From Methylotenera sp. (GTDB taxonomy: Bacteria; Pseudomonadota; Gammaproteobacteria; Burkholderiales; Methylophilaceae), in NCBI GenBank assembly GCA_030682715.1, contig JAUXNQ010000007.1, forward strand, positions 1-42,485: 42,485 nt of DNA. Reading direction: 5' to 3'. The notes under the pieces were generated by a model. The model worked only from the letters and a program-made list of their open reading frames with translations. It was not told where the DNA came from and searched no databases. Shown here piece after piece: positions 15,738 to 32,685 of the stretch; position 1 is the stretch's first letter, and every line of letters begins with the position of its first letter. A program made the position numbers and the translations under genes.

Positions 15738-15743
15738 TATAAT
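15738..15743 (+). promoter_or_regulatory. -10 box for the btuB riboswitch transcript
   Basis: TATAAT at 15738-15743 lies just ahead of the first riboswitch helix. The best -35 candidate, TTAACT (15713-15718), is at a long 19-base spacing, so the -35 is uncertain. Confidence 0.55.
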
Positions 15744-15749
15744 TGTCGC

Positions 15750-15990
15750 TGTTGATAGGTGCCAAGTTTGTGATTCACAAACAAGGTGAAACTGGGAAAT
15801 AGGTGCGTTAACGCTTTATTATTTAAAGTAAACAATGCCTATGCTGCCCCCGCAACGGTAAGTGAGTATGATTTTTAATCATCTTGTTTTGCAATAAACC
15901 ACTGAACACGACTATTTTCATAGTACACGTTTGGGAAGGTGCAAAACATAGCGCTCATAAGCCCGGAGACCGGCCTCGCAACAATTAGTT
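15750..15990 (+). promoter_or_regulatory. Cobalamin riboswitch upstream of btuB
   Basis: The conserved core CTGCCCCCGCAACGGTAA is present at about 15842-15859, and the B12 box AGCCCGGAGACCGGCCT at 15960-15976. A GGTGCC-type 5' segment lies near 15757 and GGGAAGGTGC near 15932. Adenosylcobalamin binding is expected to repress the downstream genes. It is oriented with btuB and probably controls the whole run to 28110. Confidence 0.96.
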
Positions 15991-16081
15991 GGAAATACCG
16001 CGGGGTGACGGTTTATCAAAACGTACTGCATGGCTGATGCATATGCGTCATTTTTTCGTTTCGATGCTTTAAACTCCCTGG

Positions 16082-16132
16082 TATTTCCTTTTTCACAGCT
16101 GCATGCGGGGTCGCATGTCACAAAAGGAAATA
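16082..16132 (+). promoter_or_regulatory. Ribosome-binding-site sequestering hairpin (expression platform)
   Basis: TATTTCCTTTT (16082-16092) is the exact reverse complement of AAAAGGAAATA (16122-16132), which contains the btuB Shine-Dalgarno AAGGAA. An inner stem CATGCG/CGCATG with loop GGGT lies between. When formed, the hairpin hides the ribosome site, so the riboswitch is expected to act on translation initiation. Confidence 0.85.
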
Positions 16133-16134
16133 GA

Positions 16135-18027
16135 ATGAATAAAAAAATCATTGCAGGCTTAATCAGCCTCGCATTTCATCACAACATATCCGCTACAGAA
16201 AGCATCAACTTAAACGAAGTGGTTGTCACAGCCACTCGAACATCACAAGCACGTGAGAATGTGATCGGTGATGTCACCATAATTGACCGTCAAGAAATTG
16301 AACGCATGGGTGCAGGTTCTATCACTGACATCTTGCGCATGCAGCCTGGTGTACAAGTCAGCGCCAACGGTGGTGCGGGCACCGCGAGCAATGTATATCT
16401 ACGTGGCACAAATGATCAACATGTTGTTGTATTGGTAGATGGCTTACGAATCAACTCTGCCACATTAGGTACAACCTCTTTTGAAAATATTCCGCTTGGT
16501 CAAATTGAAAGTATTGAAATACTTCGCGGACCAGCTTCTAGCTTATATGGTGCCGATGCTATTGGTGGTGTTATTCAGATATTTACACGTAAAAATATTT
16601 CTGATAAACCCGTGGTGAGTGCGGCAGCTGGACTTGGCTCTTTCAATACAAAAACTGCTGAATTTGGCATCAGCGGTGCGGTAAGTGCGCTTAAATATGG
16701 CGTAAACGTTAGCAGTATGGATACTGAAAGCTTTTCTGCTAAACGTATACGCATAGGCAAAGACGCTGATGATGATAGCTACCGCAATTTAAGCACGTCC
16801 GCCTTTTTGGAGCTTGCACTAGCTCAAGGTCATACTTGGGGTTTACAATTTTTTGAAAGCAAAGGTCATGCAGAGTTTGATAATAATTATGAGAACTTTG
16901 GTGAGCAAACGCTACAAAGCTATGCATTTACCAGCAAAAATCAATTTACTGATATATGGCATAGCACATTTAAGCTGGGCATGGGTGTAGATGATTCTGA
17001 TAGCCACGCAAGACCTAATACCAACCCAGCAAGTTCAAGTTACAATCCTACTGGCATTAGCAAGTTTCGCACAGAGCAACTACAACTTACTTGGCAACAC
17101 GACTTTCAATTGCCAATTGGTGCACTAACCTTGGCATATGACAGGCTAGAACAGGATGTAGATTCACAAAGTAATGTTAAAACTCGAGTTAAGGAGCAAC
17201 GTAACAACGATAGCTTCTTGGCAAGCTATTTTGCTAATCTTGATAAACATACTTTACAGCTTTCATTGCGTGAGGATCATAATACGCAGTTTGGCAACTA
17301 CACAACTGGTGGTGCTGGCTATGGTTACCGCATTTCTCCTGAGTGGCGTATCACTGCCAGCTATGGCAAAGCATTTAAAGCACCGACATTTAACCAGTTA
17401 TATTTCCCTAACTTTGGCGACCCTACTTTAACTCCAGAAAAGTCAGATAACGTAGAGGCTGGCGTTAAATATACAGGTCAACACTTTAATGCTGGCATCA
17501 CCATATTTGAAAATAAAATCCGCAATTTAATTGCAAACGCGGGGCCTGCTACCGCGGGCTGTACGTTTGGAGGGTTCTGCCCGATTAACGTTGGTAAAGT
17601 TGAAATACTAGGAACAACAATAGACGGAAACTGGAGCTTGACTGACAATTTAGTTCTAAGCGGAAACTTAACTGTGCAGTCTCCTCGCGATGAAGAATCA
17701 GACCAGTTACTCATTCGCCGTGGTAATCGATATGGCACGGTTAACCTCATGCATACGTGTGGAAACTTACAATGGGGATCTGAAGTTACAGGCGCATCCA
17801 CGCGCTACAACGACGCAAATAATACAAAAGCGATGAGGGGCTATATGCTAGTTAACTTCACCGCCAACTATAAACTATCTCCTGAGTGGAAACTAGAAGC
17901 GCGCGCTAATAATGTATTCGATAAGAATTACATCCTAGCTTATACAGGCAACTCAGCGACAGCCGTACCTTACAACACAGCAGGAAGCAATTTATTTGTA
18001 GGATTGCGCTACAACATGAAACATTAA
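16135..18027 (+). CDS. btuB: BtuB, TonB-dependent cobalamin receptor
   Basis: Start at ATG 16135, right after AAAGGAAATAGA; the same frame is open further upstream, but that part lies in the riboswitch platform. The 630-residue product has a signal peptide ending near SAT, then the TonB-box region NEVVVTATR. The plug carries VYLRGTNDQHVVVLVDGLRI and ESIEILRGPASSLYGADAIG, and a 22-strand barrel follows, including the APTFNQLYFPNFGDPTL block typical of BtuB. It imports corrinoids across the outer membrane using TonB/ExbB/ExbD. A riboswitch controls it, and the next genes are B12 genes. Length is normal. Confidence 0.95.
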   Translation: MNKKIIAGLISLAFHHNISATESINLNEVVVTATRTSQARENVIGDVTIIDRQEIERMGAGSITDILRMQPGVQVSANGGAGTASNVYLRGTNDQHVVVLVDGLRINSATLGTTSFENIPLGQIESIEILRGPASSLYGADAIGGVIQIFTRKNISDKPVVSAAAGLGSFNTKTAEFGISGAVSALKYGVNVSSMDTESFSAKRIRIGKDADDDSYRNLSTSAFLELALAQGHTWGLQFFESKGHAEFDNNYENFGEQTLQSYAFTSKNQFTDIWHSTFKLGMGVDDSDSHARPNTNPASSSYNPTGISKFRTEQLQLTWQHDFQLPIGALTLAYDRLEQDVDSQSNVKTRVKEQRNNDSFLASYFANLDKHTLQLSLREDHNTQFGNYTTGGAGYGYRISPEWRITASYGKAFKAPTFNQLYFPNFGDPTLTPEKSDNVEAGVKYTGQHFNAGITIFENKIRNLIANAGPATAGCTFGGFCPINVGKVEILGTTIDGNWSLTDNLVLSGNLTVQSPRDEESDQLLIRRGNRYGTVNLMHTCGNLQWGSEVTGASTRYNDANNTKAMRGYMLVNFTANYKLSPEWKLEARANNVFDKNYILAYTGNSATAVPYNTAGSNLFVGLRYNMKH

Positions 18028-18152: not shown

Positions 18153-18722
18153 ATGCTAACACTCTCTAAAACACAACAAATAATCATAGGTGTTGCACTT
18201 GCTGCGCTTATTATTGTGACGCGTGGTCATCACTTTGCTTCAATCAACAGCCTACCAAGTGCCTCACTAGCGGTGTTTTTTCTAGCGGGTTTGTACCTAA
18301 GCCCTGCCTTGGCATTTCCAGCACTACTTGCTTTATGTGCAGGCTTAGACTTTTACTCTGTGACATTTCAAGGTGTTAGCAACTTCTGCGTAACACCCGC
18401 TTATGGCTTTTTATTGCCAGCTTACGGTGTGATGTGGCTTGCTGGTCGTTGGTTTGCGAAACATTATAGCTTTAGCATTAAAGCTATTTTGCCACTTATC
18501 GGTAGCATCACTGTTGCTGGAGCAATCAGCGAGCTATTCTCTAGCGGTGGCTTTTACTTCTTTGGTGGCCGCTATCCTGACCCAACCATCACTGAATTTG
18601 GCGCTCGCTTAGCTAAATATGCACCACACCAATTTGAGAACATTGGCTTCTGGTTAGCTGTTGCTACTGTCGTGCATATTGCATTTGTATTAGCAAGCGG
18701 TGTGAATCGCGCAAAAGCTTAA
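18153..18722 (+). CDS. btuM: BtuM-type cobalamin transporter (solitary ECF S-component)
   Basis: A 189-residue membrane protein with about six hydrophobic segments. The stretch FQGVSNFCVTPAYGFLLPAY places a cysteine at residue 79. BtuM of Thiobacillus denitrificans is a solitary S-component that imports B12 without its own ECF module, and its Cys80 ligates cobalt and removes cyanide. Size, topology, the cysteine and the position between btuB and cobO all fit. No BtuC or BtuD is in the window, so this is the obvious inner-membrane carrier. The call is from recall of the family and context, not a search. Confidence 0.8.
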   Translation: MLTLSKTQQIIIGVALAALIIVTRGHHFASINSLPSASLAVFFLAGLYLSPALAFPALLALCAGLDFYSVTFQGVSNFCVTPAYGFLLPAYGVMWLAGRWFAKHYSFSIKAILPLIGSITVAGAISELFSSGGFYFFGGRYPDPTITEFGARLAKYAPHQFENIGFWLAVATVVHIAFVLASGVNRAKA

Positions 18723-18728
18723 TTAGCA

Positions 18729-19334
18729 ATGTCATCTGACGATAAAAACACGCGCCATACAACACGTATGGTGCGTAAAAAAGCAGTGATTGATGCTGCA
18801 ATTGAACAAGCAAACCAAGAAAAAGGCTTGTTATTAGTACTCACAGGCAACGGTAAAGGCAAAAGCTCGTCTGCATTTGGCATGATGGCACGCGCATTAG
18901 GCTACGGCATGAAAGTTGGCGTAGCTCAGTTTATCAAAGGGCGTAGTGATACTGGTGAAGAAGCCTTTTTTCGCGGTCAGGCCAACGTAGAGTGGCATGT
19001 GTTAGGTGAAGGTTTCACTTGGAACACACAAGACCGAGAACGCGATACACAAACAGCACAAGCAGGATGGGCAATTGCACAACGCATGTTGCGCGACCCC
19101 GACATTAAACTGTTGATTCTAGACGAACTCACCTACACCATGAAATATGGTTATCTTGATCTCACACAAATATTAGCTGATATTGCTGGACGCCCTGCCA
19201 TGCAACATGTGGTGGTAACAGGCAGGGGTGCGCCAGCAGCGCTCACCGAGATGGCCGATACCGTGAGCGAAATTATGGATGTCAAACATGCATGGCGTGC
19301 AGGTATTAAAGCCCAAGCAGGGATTGACCTTTAA
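18729..19334 (+). CDS. cobO: Corrinoid adenosyltransferase CobO/BtuR (CobA-type)
   Basis: A 201-residue P-loop enzyme that transfers the 5'-deoxyadenosyl group of ATP to cob(I)alamin or other corrinoids. The ATP loop is TGNGKGKSSSAFGMMARALG (39-58). VAQFIKG and the acidic LLILDELTYTMKYGYLD are the family's other conserved blocks. It starts 6 bases after btuM, so the two are coupled. The N-terminal ~30 residues (RHTTRMVRKKAVID) match the helix that caps the corrinoid site. Length is typical. Confidence 0.95.
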   Translation: MSSDDKNTRHTTRMVRKKAVIDAAIEQANQEKGLLLVLTGNGKGKSSSAFGMMARALGYGMKVGVAQFIKGRSDTGEEAFFRGQANVEWHVLGEGFTWNTQDRERDTQTAQAGWAIAQRMLRDPDIKLLILDELTYTMKYGYLDLTQILADIAGRPAMQHVVVTGRGAPAALTEMADTVSEIMDVKHAWRAGIKAQAGIDL

Positions 19335-19343
19335 AGAACTGCT

Positions 19344-20642
19344 ATGACAACTTGCAAAGCCGTACTTATTTCCGCCCCCGCATCTGGGCAAGGAAAAACC
19401 TTCATTACTGCCGCGCTTGCACGTGCATGGCGCAACCAAGGACTACGCGTTCAAGCATTTAAGTGCGGCCCAGACTTTCTGGATCCTATGATTTTAGAAG
19501 TGGCGACTGGCCGCCCCGTTTACAATCTTGACTTCACCATGTGTGGTGAAAGTGATGGCGAGGCGCAACTGTATCGCGCTGCACAACATGCTGATTTGAT
19601 TATCGTTGAGGGCGTGATGGGCTTGTATGATGGCACGCCATCAAGCGCAGACATTGCAGTACGCTTTAACTTACCAGTCTTGCTAACAATAGATGCTAGC
19701 GGCATGGCGCAGACTTTTGGCGCTGTCGCCAAAGGACTTTTGTCCCATTACCCACACTTAAAACCAGCTGGTGTGTTAGCAAATAAGGTGGGGAGTGTTG
19801 GCCATGGCAAGTTGCTACACGACTCATTACCTAGCCATCTCAATTGGTTTGGCGCACTACAAAAGAACGAAGCACTCAGCTTACCTGAACGACATCTCGG
19901 TTTATTTTGCGCAAGTGAAATGAGCGATTTGGACCAGAAAATTGAAGAAGCTGCCAATGCCTTGACGCAAGATTTGCCACTGCCGCCAACCGTCACATTT
20001 AATACGCCCATCACACTACCGCCGCCGAAACTCCTAGATGGGAAAACAATCGCGATTGCCAAGGATGAAGCGTTCTGCTTTATTTATCAAGCAAATTTAG
20101 ACTGCTTAATAGAGATGGGGGTAAAGCTTGAGTTTTTCTCACCACTCCATGATCAATCACTGCCTAAAGCTGATGCTTACTGGCTTCCGGGAGGCTACCC
20201 AGAGCTTCATCTCAACGAAATCAGCGCTAACTCAGCAATGAAAAATTCCCTACAGGCAGCATTTGATGCGAACAAACCAATATTGGCAGAGTGTGGTGGC
20301 ATGATGGCATTATCTACACACTTAAATAATGAGCCTTGCTTTGACTTACTGCCAGGTGTGAGCAAAATAGAGGACCGATTGCAGGGACTAGGCTCATTAA
20401 AAGTAGCATTGCTTAATGAAGAGCTTGGCGCACACACTTTTCACTATGGTAGCTTTACAACAGAACTGCCGCCTATCGCAACTGCCAAGACGCGTTTTGG
20501 TAAGGTTGAAAACATTTACCAACATGGTTCGATTCTCGCAAGCTTTTTGCACTTTTACTTTGCTTCTAATCCTAGGCTAGCTGCACAATTGTTTACACCA
20601 CTTTTACACCAAGGTGAGCCAAGTGTATTTAATCAAATCTAG
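19344..20642 (+). CDS. cobB: Cobyrinate a,c-diamide synthase
   Basis: A 432-residue CobB/CbiA that amidates the a and c side chains of cobyrinate (or hydrogenobyrinate) using glutamine and ATP. The N-terminal dethiobiotin-synthetase-like domain has SAPASGQGKTFITAALARAW and FKCGPDFLDPMILE. The C-terminal glutaminase has WLPGGYPELH and the nucleophile Cys317 in AECGGMMAL. CobB and CbiA differ in whether cobalt is present, which sequence alone does not settle. Its last 20 bases overlap the cobN start. Confidence 0.94.
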   Translation: MTTCKAVLISAPASGQGKTFITAALARAWRNQGLRVQAFKCGPDFLDPMILEVATGRPVYNLDFTMCGESDGEAQLYRAAQHADLIIVEGVMGLYDGTPSSADIAVRFNLPVLLTIDASGMAQTFGAVAKGLLSHYPHLKPAGVLANKVGSVGHGKLLHDSLPSHLNWFGALQKNEALSLPERHLGLFCASEMSDLDQKIEEAANALTQDLPLPPTVTFNTPITLPPPKLLDGKTIAIAKDEAFCFIYQANLDCLIEMGVKLEFFSPLHDQSLPKADAYWLPGGYPELHLNEISANSAMKNSLQAAFDANKPILAECGGMMALSTHLNNEPCFDLLPGVSKIEDRLQGLGSLKVALLNEELGAHTFHYGSFTTELPPIATAKTRFGKVENIYQHGSILASFLHFYFASNPRLAAQLFTPLLHQGEPSVFNQI

Positions 20643-23600
20643 ATTAATGAATGTCAGCATTTTGCTGTTGAGCCTATTGACAGGCACGGCTCATAGCGCG
20701 ACATTGTTTGGCATTGTGTCAGATCGTACCGCACCCGCCGCTGCGGAAGCAGCAAAAAGTATCCTTGCTCAACGCTCTGATGACCAGATTATTTTACGTA
20801 CACAATCGCAAATAATGGCGGCAGACAGCCGTACATTAAAGCGCTGGTTACAAGAAGCAGATGCAGTATTTGCAGTAGCCCTGTTTGCCGAGTCCTCTGC
20901 GCAGCTACAAAACGGACTTGACGGTCTAAAATCCGAGTCCTCAAGCACACAGCCCGCCACTTTCATCGCATTTAATGGTGATAGTGCACTATCGCTCAGA
21001 AGCCGCTTTAACAAAAGTACGGTAAGTGAATTTTCTGAAGCAAAAATACTTACGCAAACGCAAGAAAAAATACCAGATGCACTATTAGCTTCCGCAAAGA
21101 AACATGCTGCTACCGCAAAGTGGCTTGCATTACGCGAAATATGGCAAGCTGGTGGTCAGGAAAATTTGACTGCATTTATGGAGTATCTACTTAATGCACA
21201 GTCTGCAAAGAAGAACGTCCAACTGCCTACAGTCAAGCCAACACCGCCCATTCGCTTACGCGTTAACGGTAAAGAATTAGCAACCGAACAAGTAGCGTTT
21301 GCATCACAGCCCAACCAAAACAGTAAGTCCACATTAGCGGTGCTAGATTTAAGCACCAGCGACCCTCAGGTTGCAGACGCTATTTGCGCACAAACGCAAC
21401 AACAGGGGCTAAATTGTGTGGTGGTCATGGCCAAGTGGGGCGAAGCCTCAAAGCAAGCCATAGAAAGATTACCATCAATGTTAGCCCCTGCTAAACTAAC
21501 GGGCCTAGTGGTATTGCAGGATTTTGTAGTGGGTGCTGCAGAGGGGCGGGAATCAGTCACCGCGCTTATCAAAAAATTAGACGTGCCGATGTTTAAGGCC
21601 ATCAGACTCACAGATCGTAGTGCGACTGCCTGGCAATTATCAGAAGATGGCCTACCTACCAACTCTATTCAATACCGCGTCGCAATGCCTGAAGTGCAAG
21701 GCAGTAGCCAGCCGATGGTGGTGGCAGCAACAGGCGTGCCAAGTATTGATAAGCTCACGGGTATAGAGCTACGCCGCCCTGAGTTATTGCCCACAGAAAT
21801 AAAATCACTGGTAAGCCGAGTGATGAACTGGCATACCTTGCAACGCAAAGCCAACGCAGAAAAACGCGTCGCCATTATTTACTATAACCATCCACCTGGG
21901 CGGCATAACATTGGCGCTGATAATTTGGATGTGCCGCAATCTTTATTTGATATTTTGCACAGCATGAAAGCGGCTGGTTATCAAACAGGCGAACTACCTA
22001 CCACACACGAAGCCTTGCTGGATTTAATGCAGGACAAAGGCGTTAATCTACCTGAAAACAATGAAGAGCTGTCCAGCATGTTGCCTAAGGTGGCTACCAT
22101 GGACAACGCTACTTATACGCAGTGGTTTAATACTTTACCAGCCGTAGTAAAAGGTGAAATGGTGCAAGGGCCGCTAGGTCGCCTACATGCTGAGATTGTT
22201 GCAGCGCAATCAGAAGGCGAGTTAACGATTGCACATAACCGTTTGACTAAATCTATGCGCGAGCTACGCCACCTAGTAGAGGGTGTGGATCACCCACAAC
22301 GTGCGGAAGCGATTAAACTATTGGCAGAGCTGAATGATGGTTACGAAGTTTGTTTAAGCAAGCATAGCCCTTGTGAAGTACTAGATGCATTAAAAACACG
22401 CATTATAAGTTTAAATATTGAAGGGTTGCGTGGCTGGGGACACGCTCCTGGTAAAGTCATGGTCATTAACAATAAAATGATGTTCCCTGGCATACAGCTT
22501 GGTAATGTTTTTTTTGGGCCTCAGCCGCCTCGGGGCTGGGAGGTGGATGAAGAGTTACTGCATGCCAACACGACCATACCGCCACCGCATCAATATTTAG
22601 GTTTTTATCACTGGCTTAAAGATAGTTTTAAAGCCGATGTTTTGGTGCATTTAGGCAGACATTCGACTTACGAATTTCTACCGGGCAAAGCTGTAGGGTT
22701 GTCGGCAGAGGATTATTCACGCATTATCGCAGGCGACCTGCCTGGGCTTTACCCGTACATTGTCGATGGCGTAGGCGAAGGTACCCAAGCTAAACGTCGT
22801 GCACTTGCGGTGATGATTGATCATTTAACACCGCCACTGACTGCAACACCCTTGTATGACCGCTTACTTACACTACGCCAAGTGGTGGAGAGTTACGAAT
22901 CTTCAAACTCTGACACTATGCGTATTGCCTCTGCCAAAGAAATACGGCGACTGGTAGAAACGCTAGAACTGCGCGCGGAGCTAGAATCCAGCATGGCTGA
23001 TGTATTAAAAGTGCGTGGCATTAATTTTGAGCAAGCGGATGACGATTTATTAGCGCATGAAGTCGGCCATTACCTGACCAAATTACAAGAAAAATTCATG
23101 CCGCATGGCTTACATGTGTTTGGTCGCCCATGGTCTGATGCGTCATTACAACTGATGTTAGATTCTATGGCGCAAAATAAGCCAGAAAATATTAGTACTC
23201 AAATACGCGATAATTTAATCGCCTCACCTAAACTAGAAATGCAAGCACTGTTGCATGGCTTAGTAGGGGGCTTTATTGAGCCAGGCAAAGGCAATGACCC
23301 ACTACGCTCCCCTGAATCGCTTCCTACAGGGCGTAACTTTCATGCGCTGGATGGTGATGTATTACCTACTCCACTAGGCTTCCAGTTGGGCTTTAATATG
23401 GCAGCCAACGTGCGTAACCGTGATGATATCACCAAAAGTGAAGGTGTTATTTTATGGGCATCGGATGCCGTGCGCGATGAAGGCGTGATGGTGAGTTTTA
23501 TTTTATCGCTGATGGGTATCACACCAGAATGGAACTCGCGAGGCATTGTGCAAAAAATGCAGTTAGTACAACCCTCTGAAGCAGATACGACTAAGCCAGC

Positions 23601-25050
23601 AATCTCTGACACTAAACGCTATGACGTGATCATCACCACTTCTGGCTTGTTCCGTGACCTTTATCCTAACCTAATGCAATGGATTGATATCAGTGGCAGG
23701 ATGGCGCTGGCCGCATCGGCAAACAGCATTTTTCAAGCTAATCCAGATTTGGCTACTGCCCTAGATTCAGCCTTAAAGCCGCTCTCACACTATACGCGTG
23801 GCAACGAATCAATGACGACCAATGGCGTGGCGATGCACTGGGTAAAGCGTACGCAAGCGCTTTTAGCGCAAGGCATGCCAGCCGAGCAAGCAGGACGTGA
23901 GGCGGCATGGCGTATATTTGGTGATGCGCCTGGCGCTTATGGTGCAGGCGTGAATACCTTAGCAGAGCGCTCGGGCGCGTGGCAAAACCGTAACGAAATC
24001 GGCCGCGCCTATTTGCAGCGCATGGGGCATGCCTACGGTGTAGATGCCCAAGGCGAACCAGCGCACGAAGCATTTGATACCGCCTTACATAGCATTGCAA
24101 CCACCTACCACGGTCGCGCTTCTAATCTGTATGGCTTAATGGATAACAACGATGCTTTTGATTACTTGGGTGGTCTGTCCCTCGCAATAGAAACCATTAC
24201 TGGCAACAAACCACAAGCCCGCATATTGAATCATGCAGACCAAAAAGGTTTTACGGATGAACCGCTGGAAACAGCATTACTCATGGAACTGCGTGGGCGT
24301 TACTTAAACCCTTCATGGATAAAACCACTCATGAGCCACGGCTATGCTGGCGCGCGCACCATGAACCAAGCGTTTATGGAAAATTTATGGGGGTGGCAAG
24401 TTACCCGTCCAGATATTATTAAAGATTGGGCATGGAACGAAGTTAAGCGCGTGTATATTGACGACGACTTAAAGCTAGGTCTGAATCAATTTTTAGAGCA
24501 AGGACATAACGCACAAGTCAAAGCCAGCATGGTTGCATTGATGCTGGTTGCCGCACAAAAAGGGTTTTGGAAGCCAGATACTGCTAGTACACAGCAATTA
24601 TCTCAAACGCTGGCTAGATTGGTTATCAAAAATGGCTTACCTGGTAGTGGTCACACCGCACCTAACCACACGCTATGGGATTGGATGGGGCAACATTTGA
24701 ATGCAGAGGATAAAGCAGGACTTGCACGTGTGCTCGCAAAAGCACGTGGCTATGGTAAGACACAATCCATCACCGATGCTTTACAGAATTCAGCGCAATT
24801 GGTTCAAAATAAAGAAGCTTCGAAAACAGGCCAAAACCAACAAGTTAGCAAAGCTATCACGCATCAATCTACTATAGATTCGGCAAATATAGATGCGGCA
24901 AAGTCTGAGCTAAAAACGCCTATCAATAAAGCAGTGCGAGCTTATGAACTTACCGTCGAGACGGTTAAAGACAATCTCGCTTGGATACTGTTACTACTGC
25001 CTATTTTTGCGATAGGCCTTTGGTTTGGCACACGTAAACCTACTGCATAA
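20623..25050 (+). CDS. cobN: Exported, membrane-anchored CobN-type chelatase subunit
   Basis: A very long CobN/BchH-family protein, 1475 residues from GTG 20623. That start is preferred because AAGGTGA lies 5 bases upstream and it gives a Lys/Arg n-region before the hydrophobic core SILLLSLLTG and a cleavage site after AHSA; ATG 20647 has no ribosome site. The C-terminus has one membrane helix (WILLLLPIFAIGLWFG) and a short RK tail. The large domain should therefore be periplasmic, unlike classical cytoplasmic CobN. Chelatase-core residues remain: LGRHSTYEFLPGKAVGL at about 677-693 holds the conserved His and Glu, with PPHQYLGFYHWL before it. No CobS/CobT ATPases are nearby; an ExbB-like and a DUF2149 protein follow. 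Metal insertion or removal from a tetrapyrrole is inferred. Confidence 0.88.
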   Translation: MYLIKSRLMNVSILLLSLLTGTAHSATLFGIVSDRTAPAAAEAAKSILAQRSDDQIILRTQSQIMAADSRTLKRWLQEADAVFAVALFAESSAQLQNGLDGLKSESSSTQPATFIAFNGDSALSLRSRFNKSTVSEFSEAKILTQTQEKIPDALLASAKKHAATAKWLALREIWQAGGQENLTAFMEYLLNAQSAKKNVQLPTVKPTPPIRLRVNGKELATEQVAFASQPNQNSKSTLAVLDLSTSDPQVADAICAQTQQQGLNCVVVMAKWGEASKQAIERLPSMLAPAKLTGLVVLQDFVVGAAEGRESVTALIKKLDVPMFKAIRLTDRSATAWQLSEDGLPTNSIQYRVAMPEVQGSSQPMVVAATGVPSIDKLTGIELRRPELLPTEIKSLVSRVMNWHTLQRKANAEKRVAIIYYNHPPGRHNIGADNLDVPQSLFDILHSMKAAGYQTGELPTTHEALLDLMQDKGVNLPENNEELSSMLPKVATMDNATYTQWFNTLPAVVKGEMVQGPLGRLHAEIVAAQSEGELTIAHNRLTKSMRELRHLVEGVDHPQRAEAIKLLAELNDGYEVCLSKHSPCEVLDALKTRIISLNIEGLRGWGHAPGKVMVINNKMMFPGIQLGNVFFGPQPPRGWEVDEELLHANTTIPPPHQYLGFYHWLKDSFKADVLVHLGRHSTYEFLPGKAVGLSAEDYSRIIAGDLPGLYPYIVDGVGEGTQAKRRALAVMIDHLTPPLTATPLYDRLLTLRQVVESYESSNSDTMRIASAKEIRRLVETLELRAELESSMADVLKVRGINFEQADDDLLAHEVGHYLTKLQEKFMPHGLHVFGRPWSDASLQLMLDSMAQNKPENISTQIRDNLIASPKLEMQALLHGLVGGFIEPGKGNDPLRSPESLPTGRNFHALDGDVLPTPLGFQLGFNMAANVRNRDDITKSEGVILWASDAVRDEGVMVSFILSLMGITPEWNSRGIVQKMQLVQPSEADTTKPAISDTKRYDVIITTSGLFRDLYPNLMQWIDISGRMALAASANSIFQANPDLATALDSALKPLSHYTRGNESMTTNGVAMHWVKRTQALLAQGMPAEQAGREAAWRIFGDAPGAYGAGVNTLAERSGAWQNRNEIGRAYLQRMGHAYGVDAQGEPAHEAFDTALHSIATTYHGRASNLYGLMDNNDAFDYLGGLSLAIETITGNKPQARILNHADQKGFTDEPLETALLMELRGRYLNPSWIKPLMSHGYAGARTMNQAFMENLWGWQVTRPDIIKDWAWNEVKRVYIDDDLKLGLNQFLEQGHNAQVKASMVALMLVAAQKGFWKPDTASTQQLSQTLARLVIKNGLPGSGHTAPNHTLWDWMGQHLNAEDKAGLARVLAKARGYGKTQSITDALQNSAQLVQNKEASKTGQNQQVSKAITHQSTIDSANIDAAKSELKTPINKAVRAYELTVETVKDNLAWILLLLPIFAIGLWFGTRKPTA

Positions 25051-25065
25051 AACATCAAGATTACT

Positions 25066-25521
25066 ATGGAAAATCATATGTCTATTAATTTAAACTATCT
25101 GCATAGCGCCATTACATGGCTGTTAGAGCCAGTTATCATCATCCTCGTTGCGGCAGTGGTGATTGCCGTATTAGAAGCAGGCTTAGCCATTGGTGAGCGC
25201 TTATTTGGGCTCAAACAATTACGTAATGCTGGGGAGGAGGCAGTGCTTAGGGTGGCACGTAAACGCCTAGAGCGCGCAGACTTCTTAGCGCGTATTCCTC
25301 CTATGCTCGGTTTAATGGCGACTATTATCCCGTTAGGACCTGGGCTTGCGGCATTGGGCCAAGGTAACCCATCATTACTTGCGCAAGCGGTCACCACAGC
25401 ATTTGATGCGACGGTGTTGGGGTTGCTGGCTGGCATTATTGGTTTAGTGATTGGCAAGTGCCGCCGCCGCTGGTATGAGGATGTATTAGTGTCGCTTGAA
25501 ACACAATCACAACAAGCGTAA
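25066..25521 (+). CDS. Small MotA/TolQ/ExbB-family proton channel (CobN partner)
   Basis: A 151-residue ExbB relative with helices at about 15-42, 78-98 and 108-130. The channel core reads ARIPPMLGLMATIIPLGPGL then AQAVTTAFDATVLGLLAGII, the counterpart of the two core helices in the canonical ExbB at 171-920 (249 residues). It lacks the long cytoplasmic domain seen there. It starts 15 bases after cobN and precedes the DUF2149 gene, so the three likely form one complex in which proton flow drives CobN. The equivalent gene in Bacteroidetes haem loci is hmuT/U-like, from recall. Confidence 0.87.
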   Translation: MENHMSINLNYLHSAITWLLEPVIIILVAAVVIAVLEAGLAIGERLFGLKQLRNAGEEAVLRVARKRLERADFLARIPPMLGLMATIIPLGPGLAALGQGNPSLLAQAVTTAFDATVLGLLAGIIGLVIGKCRRRWYEDVLVSLETQSQQA

Positions 25522-25553
25522 TAACTACCCAGACTATTCAGCCCAACACAATC

Positions 25554-25892
25554 ATGCAAAAGAAGCACAGCCTAGACAATCGTTTAAATGGTCGTTTTAA
25601 TCACGAAGACGAAGACCCACGTGCAAGCTTGGTGAACTTAGTGGATGTGATGCTGGTGTTTGCTTGTGGTTTATTGGCAGCACTTAGCGCTGGTCAGCAA
25701 TCGACCCTCAACCGACCGCAAGAAGTCAATAAAGGGCGAGAAATTGAGACACCATCCACTGGTGAGCAAAGTGTTGGTAATGGTTATGACGCCATCGGGC
25801 AAGTATATCGCGACCCTAAAACGGGCAAGTTGTTTTTGATTGAGTCCACACCAGAGTTAGCGGCTGACAAAGGATCAAAAGGTAAATCCTAA
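25554..25892 (+). CDS. DUF2149 protein, ExbD/TolR-like partner
   Basis: A 112-residue DUF2149 protein. One N-terminal helix, SLVNLVDVMLVFACGLLAAL (~25-44), closely resembles the ExbD helix [16 protein letters not shown] encoded at the left edge of this window, including the Asp that carries protons. The periplasmic tail ends with GNGYDAIGQVYRDPKTGKLF, the DUF2149 signature. It overlaps bluB by one base (TAATG). Role as the ExbD equivalent of the neighbouring channel is inferred from the helix and gene order. Confidence 0.87.
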   Translation: MQKKHSLDNRLNGRFNHEDEDPRASLVNLVDVMLVFACGLLAALSAGQQSTLNRPQEVNKGREIETPSTGEQSVGNGYDAIGQVYRDPKTGKLFLIESTPELAADKGSKGKS

Positions 25893-26557
25893 TGCAAGAC
25901 TTTAGTTACCCAGACCATGAGAAAGAGGCGATTTATCGCGTCATTGCTGAGCGCCGTGATATGCGCCACTTTCTGCCTACGCCAGTTGCCCCAGAAATAC
26001 TCACCAAAATTCTTCATGCTGCGCACCATGCGCCAAGCGTAGGCCTCATGCAGCCGTGGCGCTTTATTAGAATTACCGATGTAAATACGCGCAGTCAAAT
26101 TCATCAATTGGTAGATAAAGAGCGTATTAATACTGCGCAAGCGATAGGTGAACATGAAAACACTGCACGCATGGCTGAGTTTCTGCGTTTAAAAGTAGAA
26201 GGTATATTAGAGTGTGGCGAGCTCATCGTGGTGAGCCTGTGCGATAAACGAGAAGAACATATCTTTGGCCGTAGAACCTTGCCTGAGATGGATATGGCGT
26301 CTGTGAGCTGTGCGATACAAAACATGTGGCTAGCCTCTCGTGCTGAGGGTCTGGGCATGGGTTGGGTGTCTATTTTCGACCCTGTTGAATTGGGTGCGTT
26401 ACTGAAGATTCCCCCAGGTGCCAAGCCAGTTGCCATCTTATGCTTGGGCCACGTAAGCTCTTTTTACAAAGAGCCGATGCTCATAGAAGCTGGCTGGAAA
26501 CAAGCTAAACCTCTTGCTGACATGGTGATGGAAAATCATTGGAAGAATACAAAATGA
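25892..26557 (+). CDS. bluB: 5,6-dimethylbenzimidazole synthase BluB
   Basis: A 221-residue flavin-destroying nitroreductase-fold enzyme that fragments reduced FMN with oxygen to make dimethylbenzimidazole, the lower ligand of B12. Diagnostic stretches: IAERRDMRHFLPTPVAPEIL, HHAPSVGLMQPWRFIRI, and GMGWVSIFDPVELGALLKIP. It begins within the stop codon of the DUF2149 gene and overlaps the next gene by ATGA, so it is coupled to both. Its presence means the cell can make its own lower ligand aerobically. Length is typical. Confidence 0.95.
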   Translation: MQDFSYPDHEKEAIYRVIAERRDMRHFLPTPVAPEILTKILHAAHHAPSVGLMQPWRFIRITDVNTRSQIHQLVDKERINTAQAIGEHENTARMAEFLRLKVEGILECGELIVVSLCDKREEHIFGRRTLPEMDMASVSCAIQNMWLASRAEGLGMGWVSIFDPVELGALLKIPPGAKPVAILCLGHVSSFYKEPMLIEAGWKQAKPLADMVMENHWKNTK

Positions 26558-27366
26558 GGTCCCCACAACGCATTGTGTGTCTTACGACTGAACCTACAGA
26601 AGTGCTGTATTTATTGGGTGAACAAGCTCGCATTGTTGGCATTTCTGGCTTTACCACCCGCCCCGCCATTGCGCGCAAGGAAAAACCAAAAATCGCCGCA
26701 TTTACCAGCGCTAAGATTGATAAAATATTAGCGCTGAAACCTGATTTAGTGATTGGCTTCTCTAACCTACAAGCAGATATTGCGGCATCATTGATTCGTG
26801 CAGGGGTAGAAGTGCACATCTTTAATCAGCGCTCTATTGCACAAATGCTTAACATGATTGCAACCGTTGGCAGCCTGGTCGGTGCCTCGGATAAAGCGTT
26901 TAAACTGATTGAAACGCTTGAATCAACGATTCAGCAGGCGCGAGATACAGCATCACAATTACCTGCAAAACCCATCGTATATTTTGAAGAGTGGAACGAC
27001 CCCATCATTTGCAGTATAAAGTGGGCAGCTGAACTGATTGAAATCGCTGGCGGCAAGGACTGCTTTCCAGAGCTATCGCAGTTTCACAGTGCAAAAGATA
27101 GAACTATACAAGCGAGCCAAGTCATCGAACGTCAACCGGACATCATTATCGGCTCATGGTGTGGTAAGAAATTTCAGCCTGAACAGGTCATCGCCAGAGA
27201 TGGGTGGAACACCATCCCAGCCGTAAAAAATGGCTTTGTATTTGAAATAAAATCCGCAGACATTTTGCAGCCAGGTCCATCACTCATTACCCATGGTTTG
27301 AAACAAGTGCAAGCTATTATCCAGCAATGGGCGTTAGCACAAACTCACAGCAACAATAGGAACTAA
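26554..27366 (+). CDS. BtuF-like cobalamin-binding protein lacking a signal peptide
   Basis: A 270-residue class III periplasmic-binding-protein fold (BtuF/FepB type). RIVCLTTEPTEVLYLLGEQ opens directly on the first strand, and KIDKILALKPDLVIGFSNLQ and RQPDIIIGSWCGKKF follow. The ATG at 26554 overlaps the bluB stop (ATGA), which fixes the start; the in-frame ATG 26539 adds only MEEYK. Either way there is no signal peptide, and no BtuC or BtuD accompanies it. It should be cytoplasmic unless exported some other way. A corrinoid-handling role is inferred from fold and context. Confidence 0.85.
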   Translation: MRSPQRIVCLTTEPTEVLYLLGEQARIVGISGFTTRPAIARKEKPKIAAFTSAKIDKILALKPDLVIGFSNLQADIAASLIRAGVEVHIFNQRSIAQMLNMIATVGSLVGASDKAFKLIETLESTIQQARDTASQLPAKPIVYFEEWNDPIICSIKWAAELIEIAGGKDCFPELSQFHSAKDRTIQASQVIERQPDIIIGSWCGKKFQPEQVIARDGWNTIPAVKNGFVFEIKSADILQPGPSLITHGLKQVQAIIQQWALAQTHSNNRN

Positions 27367-27367
27367 C

Positions 27368-27895
27368 ATGTCTACACATCTTATTTTAGGTGGCGCACGC
27401 TCAGGTAAAAGCGCCTACGCAGAAAAACTGGCGTTGGAATCTGGCCTGCCTGTCACTTATATTGCAACGGCACAAGTTTACGATACAGAGTTTGGCGCAC
27501 GTGTTGACCAGCACAAAACACGTCGCCCCGCCCATTGGGCAACACTAGAGCAATCTTTTAATTTAGCAGAAGCGCTGCAAACACACGCTAAAGCTGATAC
27601 CTGCATTATTGTAGATTGCCTCACACTGTGGCTGGCGCAATGCATTTGTCCAGACTGCGACCGACCAGAGAGTTTAGACTGGCAACATGAGCGCAACCGC
27701 TTATTAGAAACCTTAGCTAAGCTTGAAGGTACTGTATTATTAGTCAGCAATGAGGTGGGCATGGGCATTGTGCCCTTAGGTGAAATTAACCGTCAGTTTC
27801 AAGATGAACAAGGCCGCCTCAATCAAGCGGTTGCTGAACGTGTTAACAAAGTCAGCTTTATTGCAGCAGGCCTGCCTCTTACCCTTAAAGGATAA
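27368..27895 (+). CDS. cobU: Adenosylcobinamide kinase / GTP:adenosylcobinamide-phosphate guanylyltransferase
   Basis: A 175-residue bifunctional CobU/CobP that phosphorylates adenosylcobinamide and attaches GMP. The P-loop is GGARSGKSAYAEKLA (8-22). VDQHKTRRPAHWATLE carries the catalytic His and the Arg pair. VDCLTLWLAQ and LLVSNEVGMGIVPLGEINRQ complete the family pattern. It starts one base after the BtuF-like gene, with AGGAACTA as ribosome site, and runs closely into the S4 gene. Length is typical. Confidence 0.96.
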   Translation: MSTHLILGGARSGKSAYAEKLALESGLPVTYIATAQVYDTEFGARVDQHKTRRPAHWATLEQSFNLAEALQTHAKADTCIIVDCLTLWLAQCICPDCDRPESLDWQHERNRLLETLAKLEGTVLLVSNEVGMGIVPLGEINRQFQDEQGRLNQAVAERVNKVSFIAAGLPLTLKG

Positions 27896-28473: not shown

Positions 28474-29991
28474 TTATTGTCGATTATCGTCAGCAATACT
28501 TTTTGGCCACACCCTGCGCACTCTACGCCAACCTAGCACGATGCCAGCTATCGTGAGCAGCACGCCACCTGCCGACAATATAAAAATGGTGACTCTCCGT
28601 GCCAGTAATCTGTCACTTAATGGCGGAATATCCATGCGGTGTAAGCCATTAAACAACCACCGATAAACGCGGCTGTAGCGATCCTGTGACACCAGTATCT
28701 TAGTAGTATGTGCATCGACGTAATAAGTGGTATTTAAGGTGTCGGTAAAGGCAATGCGCAACACCTTTGGTGTTTTTTGTGCATCCTGATAGAAATATAA
28801 ATCACCGTTTGTAAGCCAATGTGCAGAATCTATCGACCCATAGACGCCTAGTTTACTGGCCTGCAATTGCAATATAGCGGCTGAGAATGACGCAACTGGC
28901 TCTCCTGACTGGCTATCAATAAGCGATTCCTGCTGTTCGTTTTTTGCCAAGATGTAAGTATTGCCAGCAAACTTCACCCATTCCATTTCCTTAATCTCAG
29001 CAATAGGTATATCAGTAACAGGCATATTAGCTGCGGATGAAAACACAGGCAGCTTCATGTCCTGCACAGTTAGCTTAGGCCCTGTCCATCGTTCAGACTC
29101 TTTAACACTCAAAGATCTTTCTGACAACCAACCGAATGGCGTTAAAGAAAGCCAACCACTCAATAACCAGGTCATGCAGAAAACACCCGCGCTTACACCG
29201 ACAATATGATGCCAGCGTGCCCAGCCCCGATACGGCGTAACCCTGCCACTGCTGTAGCGGCGACTAAAACGTATACGCTGCACACCTAGCCATAAACCCA
29301 AACTTGATAGCGCCATCCCGCCAAAGGCGAGCCATAACACTATCTGCCGCCAAAGTTCACGATCCATGCGCAAGGGCGTAAAGTAAACCCAGTGAATCAC
29401 CGAACCCAGCCAATTCCATACACGCTCACTACGATGCGTATCTAGAACAACTTCACCAGTATGGCTAGAAACATAAAGCTCACTAGCCTCAACATCATTA
29501 AGTGCAACACGGTATAAAGGCCGATGTCCATTCAGGCTCGATGAGATAGACCATTGGTCATGATCAATCAACAACGCGCCTGCTGCTTTTGCATGACTTT
29601 GAAACCGCTCAGCAGCTTTCACCGCCTCTGCTTTTGAGATTTGAATAGGTTTTTCTTGAATGGACTTACCTTGAGTAACCTTGTTAGCATCAGCCCACAC
29701 CGCTAGCCATTGCCCGTTTTGCATAAAATAGTATGCAGGGCGATGCTCCCGCATGGCTAACCTGACGCTTTCTGGTTGGCCAAGTTTGTCCGTTAACGCC
29801 CATGCTTGTGTTACATCAAGTTTTACCTGTTGCAGCTTCAAACTATCTAAGTGGCTTAGCCGCTCAGCTTGGGTAAGTTGCGGATAACCCACGAATAGCA
29901 TCACCAAGCCAGATAAGAACCAAAGCAATACAAACAGCCCCAGTCCAATACCCAGCCAACGATGCATCAGATGTAAATAGCGTAGTTTCAC
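28474..29991 (-). CDS. PepSY-associated membrane protein
   Basis: A 505-residue PepSY-TM protein. The opening helix has HRWLGIGLGLFVLLWFLSGL with the conserved HRW; further helices lie at about 210-235, 265-290 and 470-490. Between them are two PepSY-type periplasmic parts (ISKAEAVKAAERFQSHAK; TYYVDAHTTKILVSQDRYSR). Conserved His residues could bind haem. Such proteins often follow TonB-dependent siderophore receptors and are thought to reduce or release the imported metal complex. It starts 38 bases after the receptor pseudogene, so it was probably its partner. It looks intact. Confidence 0.83.
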   Translation of the reverse strand: MKLRYLHLMHRWLGIGLGLFVLLWFLSGLVMLFVGYPQLTQAERLSHLDSLKLQQVKLDVTQAWALTDKLGQPESVRLAMREHRPAYYFMQNGQWLAVWADANKVTQGKSIQEKPIQISKAEAVKAAERFQSHAKAAGALLIDHDQWSISSSLNGHRPLYRVALNDVEASELYVSSHTGEVVLDTHRSERVWNWLGSVIHWVYFTPLRMDRELWRQIVLWLAFGGMALSSLGLWLGVQRIRFSRRYSSGRVTPYRGWARWHHIVGVSAGVFCMTWLLSGWLSLTPFGWLSERSLSVKESERWTGPKLTVQDMKLPVFSSAANMPVTDIPIAEIKEMEWVKFAGNTYILAKNEQQESLIDSQSGEPVASFSAAILQLQASKLGVYGSIDSAHWLTNGDLYFYQDAQKTPKVLRIAFTDTLNTTYYVDAHTTKILVSQDRYSRVYRWLFNGLHRMDIPPLSDRLLARRVTIFILSAGGVLLTIAGIVLGWRRVRRVWPKSIADDNRQ

Positions 29992-30029: not shown

Positions 30030-32134
30030 TTAGAAAGCTAATTCAGCGGTAAGCTCAGCACGTCTAGACTCGCCCAAAATAAATTGCTGAGCAGCATACG
30101 AAACGGGCGCATACAATTTATCCGTCAGGTTACGCAAATTGCCTCTCAGCGTAGTTTTCGGGTTAACGCGCCATGCAATACTAGCATCGTAGACCGTGTA
30201 GCCTTGCATCGTAGAAGTGTTGGCATTATTTGCAAAACGTTTACCCACCATGCGTGCACCTATTCCAGCCTCCCAACTTGTTTGCTGATAATAAACCCAA
30301 GCATTGGCTATTTTCTTAGGTACATCTATTGGCGTATTGCCCGCGCGCGAAACGCCTCCGGCTTCCAGCAGCGCATCGTAGCGTGCGTCAACCAAGGCCA
30401 TATTTAAGTCAGTACGCCAGTGATTCACAGGGAATAATGTCGCCGCCAGCTCAATCCCGCGTGATGACTGCTTGCCACCCTGCACTCTAAGCGTTGGGTT
30501 ACTTGGATCACGGGTAATAATGTCATCTTTTTCTATATGATAAATCGCAAAAGTAAGCTCACCTTTAGCTTCAGGTAACACGTGTTTGATGCCAAGTTCG
30601 GTTTGCTGTGCTTAAGTCAGTTTAAATGCTCCATTTCTCGGCCTTAACGTAACAATAGAAGATACCGGGTCTGAGCCTTGGCTGAATTGACCATAGAATG
30701 CGGTACTTGGCGTAGTTTGGAATACCGCACCGAATCTGTATGCAAATGGTGAGTAGTTTTTATTCAGGCTCGCTGTAGTTAAGCGGCTTTCATGGTCTAC
30801 ATTAATCAAATCCTGACGCATGCCAGCACTCAACTTAAGCTGGTTTGTCACATCAAAAGCGTCTTCTACAAATAAAGCTTGCTGTACTGTTTTAGACACA
30901 TAGTCGACAACCGTCGGGTCTATCGTCGTGAAGTATCCAGGATTAGCATTATTGATAGCAACATTGCTAGTAGGGTCGTTACCGTTATAAAAATTGTCAA
31001 AATATTTAAAATCCACTCGTGCCACTTCATAGCCTGCTGACCAGCGATTTTTATGCCCAAAAGCATCAGAAATTGAAACCAGTTCAAAACGGTTACCAAT
31101 TTGCTTCTGCTGGTGCTTAATCTCGGTGTAACCAGAGCGGTCTACGGTATTGGTGGCATTATCAATTGCAAAATACTCTACATTGCGCCAATGGCGACGA
31201 GCATTAAACCAATAACTCACATTACTTAATTTAAGCGCGTCCGATAATTGCCATTCAACTTTTGCACGCAAACGGTCTTCTGTAAAGCTTTGTTTATCGT
31301 CGCGAATGTTGTAGTTTTCTTTACGCAGAGATGAATCAATACGCCAATTACGCAATGGAATACCTGTATATCGAGTCGGTGATTCATCGGAGTGATCAAA
31401 AGTAAAGTTAATGCGCAGGTCCTCAGTGGGAGTAAGTAGCAGATTAGTCATGAGTTTCTGGCTATCATGCTCACCACGGTCTACATAACCATTACCACCC
31501 GTTACCGAAGCATCTGCACGAAATGCACCAATCTCACCCACAGCACCTGTGCCGCCTATGCCAGCTCGGTACTCACCGCGAGAGCCTGCACCGACCAGCG
31601 CGTCCACAGAGCTTTCACGACTAGGCGCCTTACGTATGCTGTTAACGATACCACCAACTGTGCCATCTCCAAATAACACTGAAGCTGGGCCACGTAATAT
31701 TTCAACACGTTGGTATCCCCAAGTATCCGAAGGGTAAGTCAGTGTGCTTGCAGCGGTAAGTAAGCGGATACCATCTTCAGCCTGGCCTACGGAATCGTTC
31801 CCAGTAAAACCACGCGCAGAGTACGCTACACCAGAGCCAAGGTTGCTAATATCGGAAATACCAGTGGTACGAGAAACAGCCTCATGGATATTAATATCAC
31901 CACGCATGCGGATCGTTTCTATATCCAGGGTTTCGACACTAGCAGGAATATCAATAGCATTCAGGCCCAGTCTGCTGGCCGTGCTATTGGGTTGTTTAAG
32001 ATTAAGTACGGTATCTTGATCAGCAGTAGACTCTACGCTGACCTCGTTGAGCTTTAACACTATTTCATCAGCCATGGCCAACTTGGTAGCGCGGCCAACA
32101 CAGCCATCGTTATTAATCGATTACTTTTAATCAT
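30030..32134 (-). pseudogene. TonB-dependent siderophore-type receptor, inactivated by a frameshift and a nonsense codon
   Basis: The minus strand from ATG 32134 reads MIKSNRLITMAVLAALPS, a signal peptide, then falls out of frame. Restoring one base in the CCAACT run at about 32078-32083 gives ...ALPSLAMA/DEIVLKLNEV, a perfect cleavage region. From there the frame is open to TAA at 30612-30614, then continues in the same frame (AQQTELGIKH...) to a natural stop at 30030. The coded protein is otherwise complete at about 701 residues: plug with YQRVEILRGPASVLFGDGTV, barrel, terminal Phe. Two independent lesions argue for a dead gene, not a single read error. A cobalamin riboswitch lies upstream. 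Confidence 0.88.
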
Positions 32135-32451
32135 TATTTTTATACTCCCAGATGCTCATTTAAATGAACATGACCAACCGTCATGTACGTTCTGCAGTGG
32201 TAGTATTTGAAAGGAGTGTGACAACGAAATATACGCATCCAAGATATCTATATCCTGACCTTATTAACGTATGCATCTGCACTCAACTCACTGAATAATG
32301 AGTAATAAGCGCATATTAAAAGCACCGCCTACTGATTCTGCTATAGATACTGCTGGGATTTCTGTGAATATATTAATGTGTAAGCAAAATAACTATTTTT
32401 GCTTTTTTACTCAGGACGCCCCGCCCTAATCAAACATTACGACTACATCAA
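32135..32451 (-). other. Gene-free leader between riboswitch 2 and the receptor pseudogene
   Basis: About 317 bases with no credible coding region. On the minus strand it holds GCAAAAATAG-TTATTTTGC near 32390, a small hairpin CATGAC-GGTTG-GTCATG near 32180, and GGGAG about 10 bases before ATG 32134 as ribosome site. No clear T-tract terminator. The long leader may contain the remnant of a deletion. Confidence 0.5.
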
Positions 32452-32650
32452 GGCAGGTCTCCTGACTCTCGGGTCGCGGCCTTATTCGCTGCCTTCCCAA
32501 ATCTAACGACTCAGTGGCCAAGGGTGCGAACAGACTATCCGATTACAGTTGCGGGGGCAGTACTGGAATAAGCTCAAAGACTTTCACGTCAAATTGCCGC
32601 ACCAGATTCCCTATTAATCAACCAGAGTGAAACTCCAGCTAAACCTTAAT
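32452..32650 (-). promoter_or_regulatory. Second cobalamin riboswitch, directed toward the receptor pseudogene
   Basis: On the minus strand the order is GGGAATCTGGTG, then ACTGCCCCCGCAACTGTAA (around 32545-32562), then GGGAAGGC, and the B12 box AGTCAGGAGACCTGCC at 32452-32467. All core blocks are consensus-like, more so than riboswitch 1. The only genes downstream on this strand are the receptor pseudogene and the PepSY gene. Confidence 0.96.
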
Positions 32651-32656
32651 CGCCGC

Positions 32657-32685
32657 AGTTTAGATTTTGATGGTATTAAAGTCAA
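32657..32685 (-). promoter_or_regulatory. Promoter for riboswitch 2 transcript
   Basis: On the minus strand TTGACT (32680-32685) stands 17 bases before TAAACT (32657-32662), placing the start near the first riboswitch helix. Confidence 0.6.

Follow-up and report, generated by a model that had tools for sequence, protein, structure and literature searches.

The window analysed here is a stretch of 42,485 nucleotides (nt) from Methylotenera sp. (Methylophilaceae; contig JAUXNQ010000007.1, forward strand), in which three consecutive genes encode a CobN-like chelatase subunit, a short ExbB-like protein and a DUF2149 protein. We regard it as on balance probable that this trio is a periplasmic cobaltochelatase, driven by the proton-motive force, which would act on metal-free corrinoids that are either self-made or scavenged. 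The wider proposal, that late cobalt insertion takes place outside the cytoplasm at the expense of the proton-motive force and that one lineage has replaced CobNST by a cycle of export, metalation and re-import, is in our judgement a serious possibility that falls just short of probable. An earlier note on this DNA had left insertion, removal and stripping all open; the evidence now favours insertion, because in three genomes whose aerobic gene set is of the late-insertion type no CobN besides that of the trio was found, and because window-type CobNs carry an aspartate at the position of His-1209 of HmuS, the heme de-chelatase of Bacteroidota.

The run of genes from a cobalamin riboswitch to CobU, trio included, looks like a single operon (Table 1), since CobN overlaps the stop of CbiA by 29 nt, the DUF2149 gene runs 1 nt into BluB, and only 15 nt separate CobN from the ExbB-like gene and 32 nt the latter from the DUF2149 gene. 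The spacing within 35 bases that the earlier note gave for the trio and its placement under a cobalamin riboswitch, recovered here with RF00174, were thus both borne out. The CobN open reading frame (ORF) codes for 1478 amino acids from a GTG start, with an alternative ATG at 20647, and is the one CobN of the host genome (2.45 Mb, 95% complete). The closest named relative at the CobN locus is Methylotenera oryzisoli, with 88% identity in the best CobN segment.

The window CobN matched PF02514 over three stretches (cut-off 24.5 bits), missed the thresholds of the NCBIfam CobN equivalog (best score 617 bits, cut-off 1619) and of TIGR02257 (523 against 822), and had HmuS (9d26) as its best match in the PDB. 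Export signals and anchors were judged in a set of 63 sequences from hydropathy, an AxA-like site and a positive tail, an N-terminal segment being called at a 12-residue mean hydropathy of at least 1.8 and a C-terminal helix at a 19-residue mean of at least 1.5. A signal-peptide-like hydrophobic N-terminus was present in all 43 CobNs of the window clade (defined below) that reach their start and in 10 of 10 CobNs from other trios, and in none of four cytosolic CobNs (maximum 1.66, L071) or two ChlHs. The C-terminal helix was called in 37 of 44 clade members and again in all 10 other trio CobNs, with no call among the four cytosolic CobNs and two ChlHs. Seven clade members fell below the threshold: five with means of 0.95-1.19 and a helix still visible (L018, L029, L033, L055 and L057, four of them Nitrospinota), the broken CobN of L017, and that of Marinobacter (L004; mean 0.63). 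These predictions support an exported, membrane-anchored trio CobN, and they agree with the earlier note, which had read a signal peptide at one end of the protein and a membrane anchor at the other.

Two motifs set the clade apart in the 63-sequence alignment and occur in the window CobN as HLGRHSTYEFLP and YHGRASNLYGLMDNNDAFDYLGG: H[LVI]GRHSTYEFLP, in 44 of 45 clade members, and [YF][LH]GRxSxLYGxxDNxDxFD, in all 45, neither being found in the 18 other sequences. The first is degenerate on a plasmid of Marinobacter sp. M3C (L004), where a clade CobN stands in a riboswitch-led corrinoid operon. In the HmuS paper the motif HFG(T/A)HG is termed strictly conserved across the superfamily, and His-538 of HmuS is conserved across it as well (PMC12583661). 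This active-site histidine of the HxGxHG motif was kept in 34/34 clade members, with the glycine that follows it replaced by serine in every one. At the position of His-1209 all 34 have aspartate, as do seven of eight cytosolic CobNs, and aspartate also occupies the position of Glu-1212 in all 34, so the LSLDHxxEFMGG motif of HmuS is missing from them. None of the 34 has a histidine at the position of the HmuS heme ligand His-254. The Met-rich domain IV insertion described for HmuS (PMC13227078) was likewise not seen in the clade, in which this region measures 124-139 amino acids with at most 5.4% methionine.

The ExbB-like protein (151 amino acids) matched PF01618 with 33.9 bits (cut-off 22.9). 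Its structure model consists of three long helices, with a predicted local distance difference test (pLDDT) score of 88, and its best Foldseek matches were ExbB and TolQ chains, with probabilities of 0.99-1.00 in the top 20 and E values of at least 0.01. Thr86 and Thr116 were invariant in 37/37 sequences. The DUF2149 protein reached 34.5 bits with PF09919 (cut-off 27.1), and Asp31, within its membrane helix, was invariant in all 37 sequences aligned; the low-confidence model (mean pLDDT 69) has a helix at 22-47 and a hairpin at 82-97. Compared with four ExbDs by hhalign, the protein gave a weak alignment (20.6%) in which this aspartate paired with that of ExbD and the likeness was confined to the helix. 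A proton path through the two proteins is therefore plausible from the conserved residues and the models, and by analogy with the partner families we infer a proton-motive drive of the trio.

A scan of our genome collection returned 47 related loci, among others from Methylophilaceae, Azotobacter, Pseudomonas, Stutzerimonas, Methylophaga, Steroidobacter, Ectothiorhodospiraceae, Nitrospinota and Nitrospirales. ExbB-like and DUF2149 ORFs lie 3' of CobN in all 47, mostly directly, the widest gaps being of about 1 kb (L038, L045), and this repetition excludes chance as the origin of the trio. All 47 genomes contain cobalamin riboswitches, and in 43 loci one precedes the trio, either directly before CobN (29) or at the operon head 1.8-4.5 kb before it (14). 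A B12-box regular expression meant to confirm the mapped riboswitches was too strict and missed real ones, and some mapped hits that came from other contigs were ignored; of 22 loci examined with cmscan, 18 were confirmed. Three of the four loci with no mapped riboswitch start at a contig end (L029, L045 and L060), and the fourth does not (L043); among ten further clade loci none was found in L082 and L085. CbiA, CobO and BluB are encoded in 16, 18 and 14 of the 47 loci, respectively. The corrinoid role of the trio is strongly supported by the riboswitch in 43/47 loci, and this part of the earlier note has gained in strength.

For the phylogeny, 54 of the 76 available sequences were analysed with IQ-TREE over 1132 columns, near-duplicates and some broken CobNs being excluded. 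HmuS was entered as pieces only; CobNs split over several ORFs (L017, L026, L048, L051, L052 and L058) or truncated (L045 and L060) were used as separate pieces, and supports were taken from the unrooted files. The window-type, corrinoid-linked CobNs formed a clade with an ultrafast bootstrap (UFBoot) value of 100 on a long branch (0.75). All CobNs linked to ExbB and DUF2149, HmuS included, grouped together (UFBoot 98) apart from the cytosolic CobNs (UFBoot 100), and HmuS joined the other trios outside the corrinoid clade with UFBoot 76. FastTree on 63 sequences was concordant (corrinoid clade 1.00, all trios 0.999, cytosolic CobNs 1.00, HmuS with other trios 0.83). The kinship with HmuS suspected in the earlier note thus reappears as a well-supported superclade, and the comparison with cytosolic CobN that it had called for places the trio CobN outside the cytosolic clade. 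Seven clade genomes contain a second DUF2149 locus (L061-L067), six of which are full trios and one of which (L064) is cut by a contig end; all fall outside the corrinoid clade, a TonB-dependent receptor adjoins CobN in L065-L067, and none of the four loci of this type examined (L061, L062, L065 and L066) had a cobalamin riboswitch.

As the earlier note had stated, the ATP-driven partners are missing: the Methylotenera genome, 95% complete, gave no TIGR01650 match for CobS and, for a ChlI/ChlD-type partner, only a 28-bit TIGR02442 fragment. CbiC/CobH is common to both known corrin-ring routes; since no match to CbiC was found in this genome, where the other ring genes were not sought, the organism is probably unable to build the corrin ring. 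Partners and chaperones were then counted over 59 clade loci (the window, L004, L014-L060 and ten of L075-L086), which represent 58 distinct ones, as L084 and L038, with identical coordinates, come from a single genome; pieces of the Methylotenera genome itself (L001-L003, L007-L013) had been removed beforehand. A strong ChlI-type ATPase (>230 bits) was found in only three of the 59 genomes searched (G012, G019 and G037), each time beside a second CobN, and of these three second CobNs the tree includes that of G019 alone, which falls among the cytosolic CobNs. Second CobNs of the trio kind, with no such ATPase adjacent, are present in six other genomes (seven counting G037 again). In the late pathway CobW is described as chaperoning Co(II) in the cytosol (PMC7689651); it was absent from 59/59 clade loci, searched with flanks of up to 8 kb for most, and stood beside six of seven cytosolic CobNs. 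Both negative associations fit a site outside the cytosol. G012 and G037 (L025 and L050), in which the second CobN adjoins the ChlI-type ATPase and no CbiC match was found, may possess cobalt-insertion genes without ring synthesis or else another chelatase.

The most telling context of the trio was found in aerobic B12 clusters. Among the 369 genomes of a class survey, clade-type CobN, defined by at least 43% identity over nearly the full length (in two long pieces in G380), was present in 12, three of which also have CbiC. In these three, G136, G168 and G283 (L076, L077 and L075), the trio lies in one riboswitch-headed cluster with CobG, CobH, CobI, CobJ, CbiD, CbiET, CobM, CobK, CbiA and CobO, CobG being over its curated cut-off. 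This late-insertion gene set implies that a cobaltochelatase is needed, and a search of each genome for PF02514 proteins recovered the trio CobN alone; no ChlI-type ATPase was found there (best TIGR02442 score 37.8 bits). Between CobG and CbiD all three clusters encode an ABC-2 permease and an ATPase (L075 4792-6758, L076 4992-6878, L077 4209-6172, all on the minus strand), a candidate exporter of metal-free corrin judging from its position; the permease was seen in none of 56 other clade loci and none of three ordinary aerobic clusters. The latter (L079, L099 and L100) have their own CobN and CobW and no ABC-2 permease. BtuB and a BtuC-type permease follow downstream in two of the three aerobic trio clusters (L093 and L095), together with a BtuF-like protein in L093, and in the third (L076) BtuB lies upstream. 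This arrangement suggests that in the lineage of G136, G168 and G283 metal-free corrin is exported, receives cobalt outside and is re-imported. The G168 cluster also encodes, between BluB and CobO, a 307-amino-acid protein with no Pfam match (L077 11110-12033, minus strand).

In the mechanism that we propose, CobN would be exported and tethered by its C-terminal helix so that its body lies in the periplasm, where it would bind a metal-free corrinoid of the hydrogenobyrinate type together with Co(II) and insert the metal. The proton channel formed by the ExbB-like and DUF2149 proteins would act on the membrane helix of CobN, in the place that CobS/CobT or ChlI/ChlD have in the cytosolic enzyme. 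The product would enter the cell through BtuM or BtuCDF and be finished by CbiA, CobO, CobQ, CobU and BluB. Ring auxotrophs such as this member of the Methylophilaceae would scavenge the substrate through BtuB; in the few genomes with the aerobic pathway the substrate would be corrin made by the cell itself, which the ABC-2 transporter encoded in the cluster probably exports. Substrate, direction of reaction, proton drive and export step are what we infer; the operon, riboswitch, export signal, partner proteins, missing ATPase partner and separate clade are read from the sequence. Metal-free hydrogenobalamin is on record as an isolate from a Chromatium strain, and inserting cobalt turned it into B12 (PMC7693184).

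Several observations weigh against a periplasmic cobaltochelatase. A CbiC match is missing in 45 of the 47 genomes, among them that of Azotobacter vinelandii CA (G041, locus L054), so a metal-free ring is probably not made by most owners of the trio, which would need to obtain it from others. Genomes with the trio do not have CbiC less often: it is present in 3 of the 12 trio genomes and in 38 of the 357 others in the class survey, and the idea that the trio replaces lost ring synthesis, read as a statistical anti-association, was dropped for this reason. In G032 the trio coexists with a CbiX-type ring cluster, which does not need late insertion, and Azotobacter chroococcum (G019) has it besides a cytosolic CobN; in both the trio would have to serve salvage. 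G136, G168 and G283 form one sub-clade (UFBoot 100) and count as a single event, and the argument for a sole chelatase in them was made without a genome-wide search for CbiX/CbiK or CobS. The aspartate at the His-1209 position is no proof of cobalt insertion, as it also occurs in seven of nine other trio CobNs. The Marinobacter CobN (L004) has neither ExbB and DUF2149 partners nor the C-terminal anchor; here the loss of the anchor coincides with that of both partners, and the gene may be decaying. Finally, the sole characterised relative, HmuS, removes metal (PMC12583661).

An unlikely but not negligible alternative is that the anchored CobN binds corrinoids with no metal chemistry, the channel driving their release from BtuB or their hand-over to BtuM or BtuF. 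The riboswitch and the operons with BtuB, BtuM or BtuCDF are in keeping with such handling, and a transport role has been proposed for a related cluster of Geobacter lovleyi (PMC3403914). However, in 29 of the 47 loci the riboswitch directly precedes CobN with no receptor gene between them, the superfamily-conserved histidine corresponding to HmuS His-538 is retained in 34/34 clade members, and the aerobic clusters for which the search yielded no CobN but that of the trio would be left unexplained. Rather less probable, in our view, is a de-chelatase like HmuS, which takes iron from heme (PMC12583661), working here on cobalt or a wrong metal in imported corrinoids or other tetrapyrroles, even though the trio has the architecture of HmuS-HmuU-HmuV and shares a superclade with HmuS (UFBoot 98). 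The missing LSLDHxxEFMGG motif and His-254 ligand speak against it and rule out simple membership in HmuS. Removal of cobalt from corrins is chemically very hard, and the cobalamin riboswitch senses cobalamin, not cobalt. Moreover, the destruction of cobalamin would bring no gain to cells short of it, and for nickel, too, metal removal from corrins is described as chemically very hard (PMC7693184).

The two partner proteins might instead energise an outer-membrane receptor as accessories of a TonB system, leaving CobN to work alone, as HmuU and HmuV have been drawn for HmuR (PMC12583661); we give this slightly less credit than a de-chelatase. The alignment, albeit weak, of the DUF2149 aspartate with that of ExbD would suit such a role, yet the Methylotenera genome has other ExbB proteins, two of them beside ExbD (L008 and L010), Geobacter lovleyi combines a trio with a full ExbB-ExbD-TonB set in one cluster, and the pair is retained beside CobN in those 29 loci that have no receptor between riboswitch and CobN. 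That the protein is an ordinary cytosolic CobN with CobST encoded elsewhere, as its PF02514 membership and the usual family annotation might indicate, is scarcely credible and was discarded in view of the signal peptide, the anchor, the separate clade and a genome with no match to CobS and no ChlI/ChlD partner.

Table 1. Genes and control element of the riboswitch-led operon, in window coordinates.
Feature	Position	Strand	Evidence
Cobalamin riboswitch, operon head	15740..15992	+	RF00174, 84.1 bits
BtuB-like TonB-dependent receptor	16030..18027	+	TIGR01779, 415.6 bits over 47-662; Plug and barrel domains
Membrane protein named BtuM in the earlier note (putative corrinoid importer)	18153..18722	+	No family matches
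CobO, corrinoid adenosyltransferase	18729..19334	+	NF004637 and TIGR00708, both over cut-off
CbiA/CobB, (hydrogeno/cobyrinate) a,c-diamide synthase	19344..20642	+	NF002204 over cut-off
CobN-like chelatase subunit, predicted exported and membrane-anchored	20614..25050	+	PF02514, 818 bits; signal peptide, C-terminal helix
Short ExbB/TolQ/MotA-type proton channel subunit	25066..25521	+	PF01618
DUF2149 protein, ExbD-like position	25554..25892	+	PF09919; one membrane helix with Asp31, then beta hairpin
BluB, 5,6-dimethylbenzimidazole synthase	25892..26557	+	TIGR02476 over cut-off
BtuF-like periplasmic binding protein	26539..27366	+	PF01497
CobU, cobinamide kinase	27368..27895	+	PF02283, 195.7 bits

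Of the remaining operon genes named in the earlier note, CobO stood with scores over both cut-offs. BtuB matched TIGR01779 over its full length, yet with a score below the model cut-off of 599.7 bits, and BtuM is a name from context alone, the family-library search of the protein having returned no family; homologues of it follow BtuB in L014-L019, L021 and L038. CbiA, BluB, the BtuF-like protein and CobU add to that list. Elsewhere the window encodes CobQ (33843-35408) and a CobD-like aminotransferase (36249-37265). Two minus-strand stretches (30030-32120 and 28474-29991) encode a second TonB-dependent receptor, broken into two ORFs by one in-frame stop, and after it a PepSY-like membrane protein, named by eye; the receptor has a cobalamin riboswitch of its own (32433-32663). 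Loci L014, L017 and L059 contain this pair as well, and in L096, beside the aerobic cluster, a receptor is followed by a homologue of the PepSY-like protein.

Should the trio indeed act as a periplasmic cobaltochelatase, a class I chelatase would be powered by a proton gradient and not by ATP, in the periplasm and not in the cytosol, and cobalt-free corrinoids, which are not usually reckoned among nutrients, would become usable for B12 auxotrophs. Genomes with CobN and without CobST would be explained, and the ExbB-DUF2149 pair found by HmuS would acquire a testable job, namely working CobN rather than an outer-membrane receptor. Shelton et al. noted cobalt chelatase annotations in some bacteria that lack most ring genes (PMC6461909), and CobN without CobST beside ExbB/ExbD/TonB has been noted in Geobacter lovleyi (PMC3403914). 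Among the matches listed in the literature searched, which left out most subscription papers, we found no account of a riboswitch-controlled periplasmic CobN or of proton-driven cobalt insertion.

Among known systems, HmuS-HmuU-HmuV of Bacteroidota shares with the window trio an exported, anchored CobN-like body, ExbB, DUF2149 and an operon with a TonB-dependent receptor (PMC13227078, PMC10434189); it acts on heme and iron, whereas the window trio is linked to corrinoids and controlled by a riboswitch. HmuS is marked by HFG(T/A)HG, LSLDHxxEFMGG and Met-79/His-254 (PMC12583661) and by a long Met-rich domain IV (PMC13227078), in contrast to GRHS, DNNDAFDY, no His-254 and a short domain IV in the window clade. 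CobNST and CobN-ChlID have the same large-subunit family, aerobic clusters with CbiA, CobO and CobG, and aspartate at the His-1209 position, and differ in that the trio CobN is exported and anchored, has no ATPase partner that we could find and no CobW beside it, and forms a separate clade. The Zur-regulated genes PA1921-PA1925 of Pseudomonas aeruginosa likewise comprise a TonB receptor, a CobN-like protein, ExbB/ExbD-like proteins and a further protein, but are under zinc-starvation control (PMC4542158); we set them beside the window trio by description, not by sequence. Similarly arranged trios that include a TonB receptor (L065-L067) lie outside the window clade. On a plasmid of Runella slithyformis (L006) a CobN-ExbB-DUF2149 trio lies with a receptor and a UreH-like urease-accessory protein inside a hyp (hydrogenase maturation) cluster, a context that hints at nickel. 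The plasmid cluster of Geobacter (Trichlorobacter) lovleyi resembles the window in having CobN without CobST, together with ExbB and DUF2149, near corrinoid genes; it differs in its DUF2162 protein, its own ExbB-ExbD-TonB set and its position outside the clade. The architecture of the trio is already known from Hmu, and it is the corrinoid branch and the role proposed for it that appear to be new.

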